A stretch of DNA of 64,000 nucleotides. Source: Alphaproteobacteria bacterium. GTDB taxonomy: Bacteria > Planctomycetota > Phycisphaerae > UBA1845. The notes beneath the pieces are model-generated. The model was not told the origin of the DNA. It was given only the letters and a program-made list of their open reading frames with translations, and made no database searches. How positions within the stretch are numbered: the stretch's first letter is position 1; every line of letters begins with the position of its first letter. The translations under genes and the position numbers were made by a program. Shown here piece after piece: positions 39,941-53,554 of this stretch. Location: contig JANQQE010000021.1 in assembly GCA_028285105.1 (NCBI GenBank), positions 62,001-126,000 on the forward strand, read 5' to 3'.

Positions 39941-40767
39941 TATTTCATAGATCGCCGAACAGGATACTCACACGCACAATCATGCTGGATTCTCGATATT
40001 TTGTTTCAACGGTGTCACAATTCGGCTCCATCGATTTAACCAGCAACGCTCGAAATCCACCCGAGGCAAAACCGGATACATGTTCGAAAGATCGTACTTA
40101 ACAGCGTAATCAACGCGGGAATTGCTGCCCTATTTTCCACAAATGCCCCAAATAAACAGCGTTCTCTGTGAATGATACTGAAACTCCCATCTGTCAGCGA
40201 AAATTACGCTAAATGCTAATGCTCTGTAGGGTTGCATACCGATACCTTGCTTTCATATGGCAGGCTCAGTCGTCTCTGTGTTGGTTAAGGCGGTGGGTCA
40301 AAAAAATCTCAGCTTCAGCCGATTTTTGGGGTTGCAGCGTAAATCGGGATTGCCATAATGATCGCCCGAGTCGACCGGAGAGTAACGGTCGCGTTCAGTG
40401 GTGGCTGCGGCGCGGTAGCCTTGCTGAAGAAGTCCAAGGGCAATTGGACGAATACTCACGGAACTTATCGCTGACTTCACAGTTCAATTCACGGACTGTA
40501 CAGATCGAGCAATGTTCTCAATAAGCATTTAAGTTTCGTGGATTGGTGACCCGTTGCGGAGTCTTGCTTCGCAGGTTTGTAAACGATCGCCGTGGCGCTG
40601 GGCCAACAAAACCAGAATGCCAATTTGCCCTGACGGACACGATGGAGCGGTGACACCGCAACAGTATTGGCGCAAAGCTGCTGAATCGTAACGCAGCGAA
40701 GCAATCACTGCTCCTGATGAACAGGGCACATCGAAAAGACTTTGGATTTTCGACGAGGCTTTGCAAT
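39941..40767. other. Gene-poor gap
   Basis: No gene is supported here. Frames on both strands up to 176 codons are antisense to or overlap the small lipoprotein gene that follows and have poor composition. I looked for tRNA and small RNA signatures and saw none I would call. Confidence 0.5.
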
Positions 40768-40965
40768 ATGAAAAAACGAACGGTGCGTGCAGCAAAGTTT
40801 ACGGCGATCTTAGGATCCGCAGTTGCATTTAACGGTTGCTTGGGTGCTGATTTTTTCAAGAGAACGCTGGAAGCGACTGTGACGCATAGCACGATTGAGT
40901 TCTTGATTGACAATGACGCCGTTTTCGACCTCTTTGAGGCCGGAGCCACGGGATTGAACCCGTAA
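40768..40965 (+). CDS. Short lipoprotein with C-terminal DND motif, copy A
   Basis: A 65-residue protein. The N-terminus MKKRTVRAAKFTAILGSAVA is a signal sequence followed by FNGC, a plausible lipobox, giving a mature peptide of about 42 residues. The C-terminus EFLIDNDAVFDLFEAGATG plus LNP shares 16 of 22 positions with the end of the next gene. The DNDxxFD stretch resembles a short calcium-binding loop, which is only a guess. GAGG lies about 10 bases upstream of the ATG. No known family. Confidence 0.65.
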   Translation: MKKRTVRAAKFTAILGSAVAFNGCLGADFFKRTLEATVTHSTIEFLIDNDAVFDLFEAGATGLNP

Positions 40966-41243
40966 CTGATTGAACCCACGGCCGACTGAGGCGGTTGCGT
41001 TTCGCGACGCGGGTCGAATCGATCTGAGCGGATGACTTTGAGTCGCAAGACTTCAGAATAAATTCGACTGAGATCGCGCCAAGTGATGCTGTGGCGTATT
41101 GATATAGAAATTTGTTGAAGGGCTGTTTATTGGTTGGTCATCGACCTAAAGAGCTGGCTCAATAACGGTGAGCCGCGGGCGATGACTGGATTCAAAAGAA
41201 TCAAAACGTTTTGATGTTGTTTCTTGAATTGGAGACTAAGGAC

Positions 41244-41465
41244 ATGAAGAAGACAAACAAAGCCATGAAATGTGCGGCAATGGTCGCCGTACTCGGCACC
41301 TGCTTTCACTCAGCTGGCTGCGGCTTCGGCAACCTAGGTGGACTCGGCCGCTGGGTCGGAGGACTCTTTGGCTCGGTCGTACCATACGTCGCTGCCGAAT
41401 TCCTCACCGACAATGACGGCATCTTCGATCTGTTTGAAGATGGCGCCACTGCAGCCAATCCGTAA
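41244..41465 (+). CDS. Short lipoprotein with C-terminal DND motif, copy B
   Basis: A 73-residue protein: signal peptide, lipobox HSAGC (Cys26), a glycine-rich segment (GFGNLGGLGRWVGGLFGSV) and the shared C-terminus EFLTDNDGIFDLFEDGATA plus ANP. It lies 278 bases after copy A on the same strand and has GGAG 9 bases before the ATG. A strong terminator follows 21 bases after the stop, so it is a real transcription unit. Function unknown. Confidence 0.72.
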   Translation: MKKTNKAMKCAAMVAVLGTCFHSAGCGFGNLGGLGRWVGGLFGSVVPYVAAEFLTDNDGIFDLFEDGATAANP

Positions 41466-44234: not shown

Positions 44235-46667
44235 CTAGTGATTGCTTTTCGTCAGCGGCATGTCGACGATCGGATGCTCCTGCCAATCGGGCGCATCGAA
44301 GTGCCACCATTCGGTATCGAGCGCCACAAACCCTTCCGACTCCATCGCCTGCCGCAGCAGATTGCGGTTGCGTCGCGATGCCGGCGTTCCGCCCTGGTAA
44401 TCCAGATGCGCGGCTTCGGAAAAATCATCGTAGCCGGTGGGCATTTCCAATTCGTTTCCGGCTGAGTCCACCAGCGTCACATCGACTGCGCATCCTCGAT
44501 TGTGCCGTGAACCATCCTTCGGGTCGGCGACGTATCGCGGATCGGGCACCAGCTCCCACATTTTCTTCTGCACCGAAAGCGGCCGATACCCATCGAAGAT
44601 TTTCAATCCCAACCCGCGACTTGCCAACCTCTCCTGCACCCGCGCAAGCCGCTCTGCCGCACCAGCCCGCAGCAGGCAGATCGCCTCTGGATACAACTGC
44701 TCACCGGTGAAGTTGTTTTCCGTCGCATAGCGAAGGTCGATGACGATACCCGGCACGACCTCGGCAACGTTGACCATCGTTTGACTGTTGGCGCTCGCCA
44801 CCTTTGCGGATTTCTCGCCACAAACAAGCGCGTCGATTCGGGCGGCCATCATGGACAGGTAGTCCGCACCCTTCGGATGATGCACCATCCCCGCGATGAG
44901 ATAAAACCGATCGCCGTGTCGAACACGGGCTGAGTCGAGGTGCCAGTCGCGCCACGTTCCGCTCTTTCGAAGGATCGAGTCGACTCTGCCGCCAAGTCCT
45001 TTCACGAACTTGGATTGGATGTGTTCAAGTCGGTCGGATGCAAAAACCTCCATCATTGCAATCGACGCCTTCCCGCTGACGAGTTTCTTCTGCTCCATCA
45101 GCAGGTAAAACCGAAGCGCCTGGCGCACCGTTGCGCCGTGCGAATGATCGTGAATCGGATCGCCGAATCGCGGCGAACCTTCACCGTAGTGTTTTCCGAA
45201 CCAAAGCCCGCCACCGTACTCTTCATCAAAAAACTGGTAGCGCTTCGATTCCAGGATTTCCTGAACCTTTTCGATACCGATGATCTTGCCGTACTTGGCT
45301 GCCAGTTCGTTGTCCGAACGTTTAATCATCCAACCCAATTCGTCACGCACATTTTTAGGCGGATTTGTTGCAACCTCGGGATGCGTTTCAAAGTAGGCGA
45401 GTAAGATGGCGATTTTTGGAACGCTGGCCGCGTAGAACATCCGATCTGGTTCGAGCATCGCCAGTCGCTGATCGTTGAGCGTCAAAATACCGAACGCGCG
45501 ATCTTCATCCTTTATATCCAGGGTCTCTCGCACGTCACGGTCGATTCGCTCAAGCTGACTTTGAAGCTCGTCATCGAAGTTCGATTCAAAGTCCAACCGA
45601 TACCCTTGCAAACGTTGGGCTTGAATCCAGGAGAGTGGAGGTTGGCGAATCGCAGGTATCAACTTCGCCTGCTCGCGATCACGTGCGGCTTGCAATCCCT
45701 TCGGTGAAACGTCGGTCACATTGTCTTCGTCGATGAGTTTTTGAATCAGCGACTCCGCGTCGTCGCGCAACCGCATGAATCGGATACCAACGCATTTCTT
45801 ATCTCCGTTGAGATACCCAACCAATTCTTGTTCGCGAACCGTAGGACGCGCTGAGTGCATGAAGTTAACCGTGCCATCGTCGCCGATCGCAACCAAACCG
45901 GTGTGCCCAACCCACTGCGACTTCTTGTTACCGCGCACGATGTTGACAAAGTCGCCTGCTTTCAATTCGTCCAGGATTTCAGGAACGCGCTCCTTGGGGA
46001 TGTACGCATCGGTGATCGGTTCGTCGGCAATGTCCTGACCAATGCCAAACTTTTTGAAGAAACGCGCCCGACGGCACACCTGTGTCAACAGCAAATGAAC
46101 TTGACCACCGCCGAGGGTTGTCGTGAGGTCAACGAACAAACCGACATTGTTGCGATTCCAATCGGCGACGGTGTAATGGTTGCGCGTGACCATTCCGATG
46201 CGCCCCTCTTTGTAACGCAGCCGCTGCAACGCTTGCACGAATGTCGGAAAATCATCCGACAGCGCCATCGCGTAGATGTGTTCGCAAAACGTGAGGCAAT
46301 CGCTGCGCGTCAGGCAGTACATGGGGTCGGGGTCATGCGTCTCGAAGGGATACTCGCCAAGCAGGTAAAGATCGTACGGCTGACCGATGTTCTTGCGGGC
46401 GAGATGTATGACGCGATCCGTCACATCCGGGTGGACCGTCTTGATGTCGCGGATGTATTGGGCCAACTCATCTTCTGAAAACGTGTAGAGTTGCCGCCCC
46501 TTGGCCCAGTCGAGGTTGACCGCAGGCCGATTTTTTTCTCGATGGGTCGCAACGGAATCCTTTGGGGTAGATTCCCTATGACAACCCGGCTGAACGAGCA
46601 AACCAAGGGCAAATGTTATTTTGAGGATGATTCCCGGTTGCCCAAACACGTTAAGTTCAAGATTCAC
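44235..46667 (-). CDS. Lipoprotein fusing DUF1460, class A beta-lactamase-like and VanX-type domains
   Basis: The product is 810 residues from a GTG at 46667 preceded by GGGGA. A signal sequence ends in a possible lipobox (QPGC, Cys29). Domain 1 (about 60-300) is DUF1460, an amidase-like NlpC fold with Cys124 (SDCLTFCEH) and His255 (WVGHTG). Domain 2 (about 380-615) is beta-lactamase/D-Ala transpeptidase-like with S415-x-x-K418, S451-D-N and K568-S-G. Domain 3 (about 630-805) is a VanX/DdpX D-Ala-D-Ala dipeptidase with S720-x-H722-x2-G-x-A-x-D729 and E786-x2-H789. Each set of catalytic residues is complete. It should cut or edit peptidoglycan peptides outside the cell. The pathway is inferred. 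Confidence 0.9.
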   Translation of the reverse strand: MNLELNVFGQPGIILKITFALGLLVQPGCHRESTPKDSVATHREKNRPAVNLDWAKGRQLYTFSEDELAQYIRDIKTVHPDVTDRVIHLARKNIGQPYDLYLLGEYPFETHDPDPMYCLTRSDCLTFCEHIYAMALSDDFPTFVQALQRLRYKEGRIGMVTRNHYTVADWNRNNVGLFVDLTTTLGGGQVHLLLTQVCRRARFFKKFGIGQDIADEPITDAYIPKERVPEILDELKAGDFVNIVRGNKKSQWVGHTGLVAIGDDGTVNFMHSARPTVREQELVGYLNGDKKCVGIRFMRLRDDAESLIQKLIDEDNVTDVSPKGLQAARDREQAKLIPAIRQPPLSWIQAQRLQGYRLDFESNFDDELQSQLERIDRDVRETLDIKDEDRAFGILTLNDQRLAMLEPDRMFYAASVPKIAILLAYFETHPEVATNPPKNVRDELGWMIKRSDNELAAKYGKIIGIEKVQEILESKRYQFFDEEYGGGLWFGKHYGEGSPRFGDPIHDHSHGATVRQALRFYLLMEQKKLVSGKASIAMMEVFASDRLEHIQSKFVKGLGGRVDSILRKSGTWRDWHLDSARVRHGDRFYLIAGMVHHPKGADYLSMMAARIDALVCGEKSAKVASANSQTMVNVAEVVPGIVIDLRYATENNFTGEQLYPEAICLLRAGAAERLARVQERLASRGLGLKIFDGYRPLSVQKKMWELVPDPRYVADPKDGSRHNRGCAVDVTLVDSAGNELEMPTGYDDFSEAAHLDYQGGTPASRRNRNLLRQAMESEGFVALDTEWWHFDAPDWQEHPIVDMPLTKSNH

Positions 46668-46945
46668 AGTCGGTTCCCCATCTACCAGGAAAGCAATTTG
46701 TGCTAGAATAACCGTTTCAAATCCCTGAGTAGGGCCGAAACAACAGGATTTTCAGGCTTCGAGGTTGCCCATGAACGGCTCCCCGACAATTCTCCAAGCC
46801 GTCTCCAACCAATCAAGCCAAATCCTCGCTAACGCACATTTAATACTTTGGATGAATTTAATTGTATCTCTATCATTGAATCTCCGCTAGGACATTATTA
46901 GGATAGACTTTGCGGAGATCGGAAATAGATACGGATTCCGATCTT

Positions 46946-48163
46946 ATGAATTTTGCGACGATCAGACCTATGGATTGGCAGGTTCTTCAAGTGGTTCATC
47001 GCCTGGGACCTTTACCGCAGCACAAACTCGCCGATCATCTCGGACGGCGGCGGTCAACAGTCAACGGTGCGACACAGCGGTTGATGGCCTCTGGCTGGCT
47101 TCAAAAAGTTGGCCAATCGGGCCAGGGGCGCGGACGGCCCGCGATCCTTCTGGCGGTCAACCGTTCGATCGGTTGCTTCGCTGGCATCGACATCGCGGCT
47201 GACGAACTTCACCTCGCGCTGGTAGCCGCCGACGGTCATCCGATGGGCCGTGCGACCGTGATGCTTGGCGAAGATCGCACGCTCGACATGATACTCGAAC
47301 AGATCGACTTGGCGCTTCGTGGACTGTTGTCGCAGATCGATCTCGGCCTCAAAAACATCTTTGGTTTGTGGGCGGGCATCAACGGCGCCGTCGATCGAAT
47401 GGGCAACGTCGTGACCTGCGCATCACTGGGATGGCACAACGAACCGCTCGGCAAACTGCTGACCGAAAAGTATGGCACCAATGTCCTGGTACAGGGCGCT
47501 GCCACAGCAATGAACGCAGCCGCAGAGTCTCTCATGGGTGCCGGACGTGACGCCACAAGCTTGGCATACTACCGAGCTGGGCAAGGTATCAGCGCTCGAT
47601 TCGTTCAACAAGGAAGACCGCTTGCAGGCGCAACGCAACGGGCTGGCGAACTTGGCCACGTCGTTGTCGAACCGGGTGGAAGGCAATGCCCATGCGGAAA
47701 CAAAGGCTGTCTGGAAGCGGTGGCATCGGGACCGGGCATCGTTGCGGGATTGAAAGAACTCGACCCCAAGGACTTACCCAAGAGTGTGCAAAATGCCATT
47801 GACGAGAAGCTGCCTTCACAGGAAATCGTGCGTACGTGTTTTGAACACTACAAGGTAGGCGACGCGAACCCCTTTTCGTCCACGTTGCACGGAAAGATGA
47901 GCTACATCGCACTGGGGGCTGCGATGGTTGTTGCAGCGTACGACCCCGAAGTATTGGTGCTGGGTGGATATTTGTTTGAAGACAATCATGCACTGCGCGA
48001 CGGCGTGACCAATCAACTTCGCGAGATGGTTCTGGACTGGGATCTTCGAAACCTGAAAGTGATGGAAGGCGAAGTCATCACGCAAGATCGCGCGGTAGGC
48101 GGTGCCGCCGAAGTCTGCCAACGATTTTGGGCGAACCCCCGCGGCGTGGTCGCTCACGACTGA
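46946..48163 (+). CDS. ROK-family transcriptional repressor (NagC/XylR type)
   Basis: The product is 405 residues from the ATG at 46946; the frame is open to a TTG at 46910. An N-terminal winged helix (WQVLQVVHRLGPLPQHKLAD, RRRSTVNGATQRL) is followed by a ROK domain with the zinc motif CPCGNKGCLEA. The catalytic aspartate that sugar kinases carry after the second phosphate loop is missing (VQGAATAMNAAAE), so it should be a regulator and not a kinase. The NagB/LmbE fusion gene lies 182 bases downstream, suggesting an amino sugar as ligand. The AT-rich stretch at 46840-46905 may hold its operator. Confidence 0.88.
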   Translation: MNFATIRPMDWQVLQVVHRLGPLPQHKLADHLGRRRSTVNGATQRLMASGWLQKVGQSGQGRGRPAILLAVNRSIGCFAGIDIAADELHLALVAADGHPMGRATVMLGEDRTLDMILEQIDLALRGLLSQIDLGLKNIFGLWAGINGAVDRMGNVVTCASLGWHNEPLGKLLTEKYGTNVLVQGAATAMNAAAESLMGAGRDATSLAYYRAGQGISARFVQQGRPLAGATQRAGELGHVVVEPGGRQCPCGNKGCLEAVASGPGIVAGLKELDPKDLPKSVQNAIDEKLPSQEIVRTCFEHYKVGDANPFSSTLHGKMSYIALGAAMVVAAYDPEVLVLGGYLFEDNHALRDGVTNQLREMVLDWDLRNLKVMEGEVITQDRAVGGAAEVCQRFWANPRGVVAHD

Positions 48164-48345: not shown

Positions 48346-50757
48346 ATGGCAAGTCAGGCGACGGCAAAATCTGTGGCAAACGACCGTCCGAAATCCGCAG
48401 ACAAGAAGTCACGTAAAGTGCAGACCGCCAGCCCCGTCGAACAAGTCGCGATACAGGAAAGCGGTTACGATCTTCGATACGGACCGAAGGAACGCATCGG
48501 GACGGTCATCGTCGACAACTTCCCGCGTCTTGGCCGACTGACCGCCGTCAGATTCCTCGAATGGGTTCTGCAAAACCCCACCGGTTCGGTCGCACTGCCC
48601 ACCGGCAAGACGCCCGAATACTTCATCAAATACGTCATGCACTACATGCGCGATTGGAAACGCAAAGACGTGCGCGCCGAATTGGAGTCAATGGGTCTTC
48701 CGACCGATCGCAAACCGGTGATGAGCGACCTGCGTTTCGTACAGATCGACGAGTTCTACCCAATCGACACCCGCCAGCACAACAGCTTTCGCTACTACGT
48801 CAACAAATACTACCTCGGCGAGTTTGGACTTGACCCGGCAAAAGCACATCTGATCGATCCGAATCAGATTGGTTTGCCGCGCGGTATGCGTATCACCGAT
48901 GTGTTCCCGAAGATGACTGTCGATCTAAGCCTGCGCGTTCGCAAAGCCAAAACGCTCATGGAAAAACGCCAGCAAGGCGTTCTCGAACACGTCGATCAGT
49001 TCTGTACAGAATACGAACGCAAGATTCGCGAGATGGGCGGCATTGGGTTTTTCCTCGGCGGAATCGGTCCCGACGGACACATTGCATTTAATGTGCGCGG
49101 TTCCGACTTTTACTCGACGACGCGGCTTGTCGAACCGAACTACGAAACACGGGCAGCCGCAGCCAGCGATCTCGGCGGGATGGAAGTCGCCCGGTCCAAG
49201 CACGTCATCACCATCGGCTTGCAAACGATCACCCACAACAAAGATGCCGTCGCAATCATCATCGCAGCCGGTGAGGCCAAGGCGAAGGTCGTGGCCAACA
49301 CCATCGAATCTGACGCGATCAACCGATTCCCGGGATCAGCGCTTTCGGTCCTGCCAAATGCCCGATTCTACCTGACCAAGGGTGCGGCAAAACGCTTGAG
49401 CAACCGAGCGTTCATCGATCTTCAGCGCAGCAACGAAGTCTCCGAGCGCCAAATTCACAAGATCGTCATGGACCTCTCGCTCAACAACGACAAGACCATC
49501 GACGAACTCAACGAAGCCGACTTCAAAGCCAACCGCTTCGGCGCAGAATTGCTCGCCAAAACCAAACGCAGCCCGCGAGATCTCAAGGATCTAACCCGCA
49601 AACAGATCCTCGACAACCTCGACAAGGGCAATCGCCCCATCGAACAAAAAAGTTTCCTGCACACAGCCCCGCATCACGACGACATCATCCTGGCTTACCT
49701 GCCGTATGTGACGAACCTCGTCCGCCGCAGCAGCACGCTCCATCACTTTGCATACATGACGTCGGGGTTCAACGCTGTCACCAACAGCTACATGCACAAC
49801 GCCATCGAGGATGTCCTGAAACGCATGCGGCGTGGCGAGTTCAGCGAGTTGCTTGCGTCCAAATACTTCGATCCGAGCAACCTGCAAGCCCGCAAGATCG
49901 ACGTGTCGTATTACCACGAAGGCGCCGCGCGTAACCACGAAGACAAGAAGATGGAAGCCGTTTCGCGCCGGTTACTGCGCAACCTGTTCGAGGTCTACGA
50001 AGAAGACCGGGCTGACAACATCAAAGAACGCTGCTCGGAACTGCTTAACTACTTCGCGACGCAGTACCCGGGCAAGAAGGACATCGCCATCGTGCAGCAA
50101 CTAAAGGGCCGCGTTCGCGAATACGAATCGGAACTGAAGTGGGCGTATTACGGTTTCCTCGGAGAGGCTGTCCGCCATTTGCGACTCGGTTTCTACAAAG
50201 GCGATCTGTTCACCGAACCGCCGCGCATTGATCGCGACGTGCCGCCCATCTTCGACCTGCTGCGCGAAGTGAATCCCGACATCGTCACAGTCGCTTTCGA
50301 CCCCGAAGGCAGCGGACCCGACACGCATTACAAAGTGCTGCAAGCCGTTTCGCAGGCGCTCAAGGAATACGAAAAGGAGTCGGGCCGTCACGACATTCGG
50401 GTGCTGGGTTACCGAAACGTATGGTTCAAGTTCCACCCGTCCGAATCCAACCTGTTCGTGCCGACATCGCTGACGCACCTGACCGACATGGACAATTGCT
50501 TCGACAGTTGCTTCAACACGCAGAAGACGGCTTCTTTCCCAAGCTACGAGATGGACGGCCCGTTCTCGCGCCTCGCCCGCAAGATCCAGGTCAAACAGTT
50601 CGACCAGATCAAGACCATGCTCGGCGAAGAATTCTTCGTAAACAGCAAGGACCACGGCATGCGAGCGTGCCGAGGCATCGTTTACCTGAGCGACATGGCC
50701 CTACCCGAGTTCTACGCAGCCTCAGAAGAACTTAAAAACGTCGCCGAAGCGATGTAG
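48346..50757 (+). CDS. NagB-like deaminase fused to a PIG-L/LmbE deacetylase-like domain
   Basis: The product is 803 residues. Residues about 50-370 are a glucosamine-6-phosphate deaminase/isomerase domain: LPTGKTPEYF, D135 in QIDEFY, and D243/H245 in GPDGHIAFN. E. coli Glu148 corresponds to Val250 here. Residues about 430-780 are an LmbE/PIG-L deacetylase-like domain with HHDD (443-446) and a later PDTHY. A similar fusion is known in Bacteroidetes and planctomycetes. Together the domains could remove acetyl and amino groups from N-acetylglucosamine phosphate in sequence. An AAAGGAA ribosome site lies before the ATG. The ROK gene is directly upstream. Confidence 0.88.
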   Translation: MASQATAKSVANDRPKSADKKSRKVQTASPVEQVAIQESGYDLRYGPKERIGTVIVDNFPRLGRLTAVRFLEWVLQNPTGSVALPTGKTPEYFIKYVMHYMRDWKRKDVRAELESMGLPTDRKPVMSDLRFVQIDEFYPIDTRQHNSFRYYVNKYYLGEFGLDPAKAHLIDPNQIGLPRGMRITDVFPKMTVDLSLRVRKAKTLMEKRQQGVLEHVDQFCTEYERKIREMGGIGFFLGGIGPDGHIAFNVRGSDFYSTTRLVEPNYETRAAAASDLGGMEVARSKHVITIGLQTITHNKDAVAIIIAAGEAKAKVVANTIESDAINRFPGSALSVLPNARFYLTKGAAKRLSNRAFIDLQRSNEVSERQIHKIVMDLSLNNDKTIDELNEADFKANRFGAELLAKTKRSPRDLKDLTRKQILDNLDKGNRPIEQKSFLHTAPHHDDIILAYLPYVTNLVRRSSTLHHFAYMTSGFNAVTNSYMHNAIEDVLKRMRRGEFSELLASKYFDPSNLQARKIDVSYYHEGAARNHEDKKMEAVSRRLLRNLFEVYEEDRADNIKERCSELLNYFATQYPGKKDIAIVQQLKGRVREYESELKWAYYGFLGEAVRHLRLGFYKGDLFTEPPRIDRDVPPIFDLLREVNPDIVTVAFDPEGSGPDTHYKVLQAVSQALKEYEKESGRHDIRVLGYRNVWFKFHPSESNLFVPTSLTHLTDMDNCFDSCFNTQKTASFPSYEMDGPFSRLARKIQVKQFDQIKTMLGEEFFVNSKDHGMRACRGIVYLSDMALPEFYAASEELKNVAEAM

Positions 50758-51219: not shown

Positions 51220-51242
51220 GTCAGGTCGATGACCCGACCTAC
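51220..51242. repeat. Degenerate GTAGGTCGGGTC hairpin
   Basis: Read on the minus strand, GTAGGTCGGGTC-ATC-GACCTGAC resembles the perfect hairpin at 50909, with one arm shortened. It lies just after the stop codon of the small gene and overlaps the end of the HTH/EIIA gene by a few bases. Confidence 0.5.
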
Positions 51243-51964
51243 GTTTTGTGCTTTGCTGCGACGACTTCTTCTCTTTCGATCAGGGCGGCCAGGGCTTCGT
51301 CTGGTTCTTCGGCTTCTCGCAATTTGCCGATGGTTTCGTCGTCGAGGATACGCATCAACCTTGCAAGTACGTGCAGATGCTGGCGATCGTCGTGGCAGCA
51401 GATCAAAAAGAACAGGCTTGTCAGCCCACCATACGGCGAGCCAAACCCGATCCCTCTTGGCAATCTTGCGAAGCACACGAACGGTTCGGCGCTGGCATAG
51501 GGCATTGGTTGACGCGGGTGAGGGATGGCGATGCCGTTGGGCAGCGCCGTCGAACACATCGTCTCGCGCTGCTGGATCGCAGTGAGCAGACCGGGCTGAT
51601 CGTAGAGCAACCCGGTGCGGTCAGCCAACCCGCAAAGCTCCAACAGCACCGACGATTTCGTCTTCGCCGGCAGCAGCATGTCGATCCCCTTCACGCTCAT
51701 CATTGCCGTCAGCAAATGCTGATCGACATCGCGCGAACCGGCTTCGCTCATGGCCTTCTCGATATCGCGCAGGCGGTTCTCTTCCAACTCGAGCGAGATC
51801 ATGTCCTGTTGCAACCACTCGGTGACCTCAGCCCGATTGAACCGCCACTTGCCAGCCACCTTCTGGGCGGGCAGTTTACCGCGGTCGGCCATCTTGCGCA
51901 CGTCGCGGGCGTCAAGACCGACATGCTTGGCGAAATCCTCGAGGGTCATGTTTTGATAGGGCAT
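51239..51964 (-). CDS. Excisionase-type HTH domain fused to a PTS EIIA (PtsN-like) domain
   Basis: The product is 241 residues from the ATG at 51964. Residues 1-60 are a MerR/excisionase-like DNA-binding domain (MTLEDFAKHVGLDARDVRKM, KWRFNRAEVTEWLQ). Residues about 95-235 are an EIIA domain of the fructose/nitrogen type with the phospho-acceptor histidine in GIAIPHPRQP and the segment TSLFFLICCHDDRQHLHVL. Bacteria with similar proteins use EIIA phosphorylation to regulate rather than to transport. No other PTS gene is in the window. The gene lies alone between repeat hairpins. Confidence 0.88.
   Translation of the reverse strand: MPYQNMTLEDFAKHVGLDARDVRKMADRGKLPAQKVAGKWRFNRAEVTEWLQQDMISLELEENRLRDIEKAMSEAGSRDVDQHLLTAMMSVKGIDMLLPAKTKSSVLLELCGLADRTGLLYDQPGLLTAIQQRETMCSTALPNGIAIPHPRQPMPYASAEPFVCFARLPRGIGFGSPYGGLTSLFFLICCHDDRQHLHVLARLMRILDDETIGKLREAEEPDEALAALIEREEVVAAKHKT

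Positions 51965-53554
<1,590 letters not shown>

Follow-up and report, generated by a model that had tools for sequence, protein, structure and literature searches.

A predicted lipoprotein family of Phycisphaerae that joins AmiA-like, PBP-A-like and VanX-type domains and may dismantle muropeptides

Introduction

VanX (PDB 1r44) and DdpX of Escherichia coli, AmiA of Bacteroides uniformis (DUF1460; PDB 4h4j, 4q5k and 4q68) and PBP-A of Thermosynechococcus (Tll2115; PDB 2j7v) are the closest described counterparts of the protein analysed here. VanX is cytoplasmic, and a secreted form of it would not reach cytoplasmic D-Ala-D-Ala. AmiA is a single-domain protein, and for the AmiA-like enzymes characterised to date the reported substrates are small anhydro-muropeptides, processed in recycling. 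Catalysis by DUF1460 amidases relies on a Cys-His-His triad (PMC10318531), and PBP-A has both DD-carboxypeptidase and DD-endopeptidase activity (PMC11189452).

Here we describe a protein that unites relatives of all three in a single polypeptide, encoded in a window of 64,000 nucleotides (the whole stretch of DNA analysed; contig JANQQE010000021.1) from a member of the Phycisphaerae, phylum Planctomycetota. Peptidoglycan turnover and recycling in planctomycetes are, to our knowledge, largely unstudied; in the fusion family to which this protein belongs, three or four enzymes of peptidoglycan fragments are linked with amino-sugar genes, which gives a pathway open to direct testing; the middle domain represents a further family, centred on the Phycisphaerae, at the boundary between DD-peptidases and class A β-lactamases.

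Results

Gene and domain organisation

A preliminary description of the locus had read it as one 810-residue lipoprotein with three peptidoglycan-active domains, each with its full catalytic set. The frame is indeed intact, with no internal stop on inspection of the open reading frame (Table 1), and the same three-domain ORF is found in three congeneric genomes (G001, G002 and G004) at 76–78% identity to the window protein. A frame error joining separate genes is ruled out, because the architecture is kept in these congeners and each domain is under purifying selection, with dN/dS values of 0.06–0.09 where computable (dS was saturated for one pair of the middle, BLA, domain).

Table 1. Features of the fusion gene and its neighbours, in window coordinates.
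Feature	Position	Strand	Basis
810-aa three-domain fusion gene	44235..46667	minus (46667..44235)	single open frame, GTG start at 46667
Hydrophobic segment and lipobox-like LVQPG-C29	46581..46667	minus	sequence; equivalent [GAS]C in most homologues
AmiA-like/DUF1460 NlpC/P60-type amidase, residues 91-287	45807..46397	minus	Pfam PF07313 1.2e-24; C124, H255, H271
PBP-A/class A β-lactamase-fold serine domain, residues 336-622	44802..45662	minus	AlphaFold, Foldseek, conservation; no Glu166 equivalent (I505)
Peptidase_M15 VanX/DdpX-type dipeptidase, residues 629-795	44283..44783	minus	PF01427 4.1e-41; Zn ligands H722, D729, H789; E786; R695
ROK-family (NagC-like) regulator, divergent from fusion gene	46910..48163	plus	PF00480 4.9e-34 + MarR HTH
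NagB-like/PIG-L-like two-domain protein (glucosamine-6-phosphate deaminase + de-N-acetylase)	48346..50757	plus	PF01182 4.9e-4, PF02585 1.8e-5, both below cut-off

Most homologues carry an N-terminal hydrophobic stretch followed by [GAS]-C, which is consistent with the designation as a lipoprotein, although the lipobox of the window protein itself, LVQPGC, has an atypical residue at −3. The protein is predicted to be lipid-anchored and extracytoplasmic.

The amidase domain matches PF07313 with 87.4 bits against a cut-off of 27, and its sequence matches in the PDB are of the DUF1460 type (2im9, 2p1g and 4h4j). Cys124 and His255, the two catalytic residues previously named, are both present and 100% conserved in 32 homologues; beyond them we find a third catalytic histidine, H271 (97%), and the three together fit the Cys-His-His triad of DUF1460 amidases (PMC10318531). 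The domain shares with AmiA of B. uniformis its family, this catalytic set and a presumed role in recycling but, unlike AmiA, is fused to two further enzymes and stands behind a predicted lipid anchor.

The C-terminal domain is a full-length M15 match (PF01427, 141.4 bits against a cut-off of 27), with VanX (1r44, 3e-16) as its sequence match in the PDB. The H722/D729 and E786-x2-H789 residues of the preliminary description are present and, like R695, invariant in all 37 M15 homologues, so the zinc ligands and the catalytic Glu and Arg of VanX and DdpX are kept. Among the NCBIfam equivalogs the domain scores above the cut-off for E. coli DdpX (181.7 versus 176) and far under that for the resistance VanX (82.1 bits versus 320). 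Whereas VanX is a cytoplasmic enzyme, the domain here is the C-terminal part of a lipoprotein-type fusion, and no van ligase or reductase of a vanHAX set was seen among the immediate neighbours scanned; a glycopeptide-resistance cluster was rejected, these neighbours giving it no support.

The middle serine domain

While the PF07313 and PF01427 matches are significant, the part of the protein first described as class A β-lactamase/transpeptidase-like reaches only 19.5 bits with Beta-lactamase2 (Pfam), under the cut-off of 22, which several of its homologues exceed. Its AlphaFold model (pLDDT 93.5, pTM 0.92) nevertheless has the class A fold, the nearest folds found with Foldseek being LRA-5 and PBP-A (E ~1e-9, TM 0.6–0.7), and S415/K418 of the SxxK motif, K449-x-S451-x-N453 and K568-x-G570 are invariant in 29 of 29 homologues. 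The earlier assignment thus holds for the fold and for the SxxK, SDN and K[TS]G motifs (KSG in the window protein), and every residue that it named is there, but, with no equivalent of Glu166, the domain falls short of the complete set of class A β-lactamase residues. The corresponding position, I505, is occupied by I, L or V in each of the 29 homologues.

The best profile match of the domain is PBP-A, with which it shares the fold, the SxxK/SxN/KxG motifs and the hydrophobic residue at the Glu166 position; the alignment is weak (E 0.37, not significant, at 15–18% sequence identity), yet it puts I505 opposite Leu158, in agreement with the fold match, and Leu158 of PBP-A is the residue changed to Glu in PDB 2j9o. 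From this we infer that the domain is without a Glu166 deacylation base; a DD-peptidase-like enzyme is a likelier identity for it than a β-lactamase, since the position is always I, L or V, as in the DD-peptidase PBP-A. A canonical class A β-lactamase is rejected on the same ground, and slow deacylation of acyl-enzymes would be expected. The domain may have weak β-lactamase activity, because LRA-5 carries the PDB title 'class A beta-lactamase precursor' even though the name of its mutant, V166E, points to Val166. Unlike PBP-A, the middle domain has additional conserved W/GKHYG and DHSH motifs and forms part of a fusion. Outside the class it was seen in one clear case (G210, L113) in a phylum-wide sample.

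A modular family of fusions in the Phycisphaerae

Part of the fusion protein was matched in 47 of 150 related genomes. The commonest fused form is AmiA-Bla-[β-sandwich of ~170 aa]-C39_2, mostly of ~940–1100 aa; others are AmiA-Bla, AmiA-Bla-X-C39-VanX (L035, L036), AmiA-X-C39-VanX (L049) and NAGPA-Bla-X-C39 (L055:8485-11373, L058:317-3400), where a NAGPA phosphodiester glycosidase domain replaces AmiA ahead of the Bla-C39 unit. The segment inserted in these relatives, for which a dipeptide epimerase proved to be the wrong identity, consists of the β-sandwich and a papain-like C39_2 peptidase; the latter was modelled with a pLDDT of 91.4, has invariant Cys, His and Asp residues, and finds among its matches C39 peptidase domains and the pseudomurein endoisopeptidase PeiR.

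The AmiA and Bla domains of the AmiA-Bla-X-C39_2(-VanX) proteins (e.g., L035, L036 and L037) are homologous to those of the window protein, at 47–64% identity and in a similar nagB context; in contrast to these commonest relatives in the order, the window's genus is without the C39 part, that is, without the 330–360-aa segment of β-sandwich and C39_2. In a tree of the AmiA domain, every AmiA fusion falls into one supported group (96/85), and the AmiA-Bla-VanX form makes up one clade confined to the window's genus (100/100). Loss of the C39 segment in this genus would be the simplest reading of the tree, whose backbone is unresolved.

The position of VanX varies across the family: it may be fused C-terminally (L035, L036), be encoded by the next gene, or lie at a separate locus. 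In L058, 12 bp separate the Bla-C39 gene from a VanX gene behind it, and in L044 the gene next to the fusion begins with a VanX domain. A protein combining a transglutaminase-like with a class C β-lactamase-family domain is encoded directly downstream of AmiA-Bla-C39 in two cases (L040:12077-15679, L044:11301-14567), the second being the gene that begins with VanX. Other planctomycete families have VanX fused to PF00144 serine domains, and in the phylum-wide sample VanX often forms the C-terminal part behind such a domain; one PF00144-VanX fusion lies directly downstream of nagB (L108). That domains are fused in one species and adjacent in another points to a joint function. The preliminary description knew of no characterised protein with this order of domains, which stands as far as checked, yet the protein is no one-off but one form of a larger modular family; its domains belong to known families, and neither the architecture nor the modular series nor the PBP-A-like subfamily seems to have been characterised before.

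Gene neighbourhood

The order of the ROK and NagB/PIG-L genes beside the fusion gene is the same in G001, G002 and G004. The NagB/PIG-L protein (803 aa; >90% identity in congeners, 64–72% in other Phycisphaerae) is the genome's only Glucosamine_iso match and is possibly a fused GlcNAc-6-P deacetylase/deaminase, its congeneric copies having 25–26% identity to a bona fide NagB homologue (L038:7389-8189). As its gene is divergent from the fusion gene and lies beyond the ROK gene, the two are not in one operon. Also encoded in the window, at 51239-51991 (−), is a PTS EIIA_2 domain joined in one protein with a DNA-binding domain of the HTH_17 type.

Across the family, the recurrent neighbours are nagB, ROK and GntR genes. 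Of 21 genomes with the fusion, 10 (from 6 of 16 genera) have a NagB or NagB/PIG-L gene within ~5 kb of it. Given that a genome of roughly 5 Mb contains 0–3 Glucosamine_iso matches, we estimate that chance would yield ~0.1 such genera; in about half of the fusion-bearing genomes this neighbour is absent. In L038, L035 and L050, the NagB-type gene immediately precedes the fusion gene in the same orientation, ~80–160 bp away, and is apparently co-operonic. AnmK, considered as support for anhydro-sugar salvage, was dropped, being absent from the genome and from the window's genus, which implies that anhydroMurNAc is not salvaged there by the standard kinase.

Discussion

We consider it probable, at roughly 0.7, that the protein is a lipid-anchored extracytoplasmic multi-enzyme that dismantles muropeptides, the fragments of peptidoglycan turnover, in recycling or scavenging. 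The first proposal of the preliminary description, an enzyme anchored at the surface that handles stem peptides in a single place, agrees with this and fits the domains, the predicted lipid anchor and the amino-sugar gene context. As to substrates, order of steps and co-regulation, we infer a pathway in which the AmiA-like domain would cut the stem peptide off (anhydro)MurNAc, the PBP-A-like serine domain, via an acyl-serine, would take D-Ala off stem peptides or open D-Ala-mDAP bridges, and the VanX/DdpX-type zinc domain would split the resulting dipeptides (D-Ala-D-Ala, for example) into single amino acids; the amino sugars set free would be taken up, then deacetylated and deaminated by the NagB/PIG-L protein encoded nearby, with the ROK regulator in control. 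Against this reading stand the missing AnmK, the half of the fusion-bearing genomes in which nagB is not a neighbour, the placing of the window's NagB/PIG-L gene in another operon with Pfam matches that fall below cut-off, and the want of an obvious pool of D-Ala-D-Ala to feed the third domain.

The same enzymes could instead digest foreign peptidoglycan, from necromass or prey, as a nutrient, and the surface placement that a lipid anchor could give, the proximity of genes for amino-sugar catabolism and of regulators of the sugar type, and a genome without AnmK, as though sugars served as fuel instead of being re-used, would all suit this; we hold it to be unlikely, as no glycan-cleaving enzyme was seen adjoining the window gene and the known activity of AmiA-like enzymes is said to lie in recycling. 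More doubtful still is a remodelling of the intact sacculus, with cross-links or chains edited at division and the VanX domain acting on another dipeptide: the VanX-type M15 and DUF1460 families work on small fragments and the linkage is not to division or wall-synthesis genes, even though PBP-A itself has DD-endopeptidase activity (PMC11189452) and relatives carry the extra papain-like domain with its invariant Cys, His and Asp.

The second proposal of the preliminary description, a combined β-lactam/glycopeptide tolerance factor whose serine domain would destroy β-lactams while VanX removes D-Ala-D-Ala, finds little support and seems to us about as improbable as sacculus remodelling. It can appeal to the VanX homology and to the class A β-lactamase fold, but it is at odds with the residues at the Glu166 position, with the secretion of a VanX that cannot then act on its cytoplasmic substrate, and with neighbours that are amino-sugar genes and their regulators, no vanH- or vanA-like gene having been seen among those scanned nearby.

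More speculatively, planctomycetes may possess modular extracytoplasmic lines of peptidoglycan breakdown in which amidase, PBP-A-like, C39, transglutaminase-like, class C serine and VanX domains are swapped on single lipoproteins, with fragments degraded outside the cytoplasm, as far as amino acids and sugars, rather than by the cytoplasmic AmpG route. As a separate observation, the window encodes two adjacent small lipoprotein-like ORFs, at 40717-40965 (+) and 41211-41465 (+), with the common C-terminal motif DNDxxFDLFExGATxxNP.
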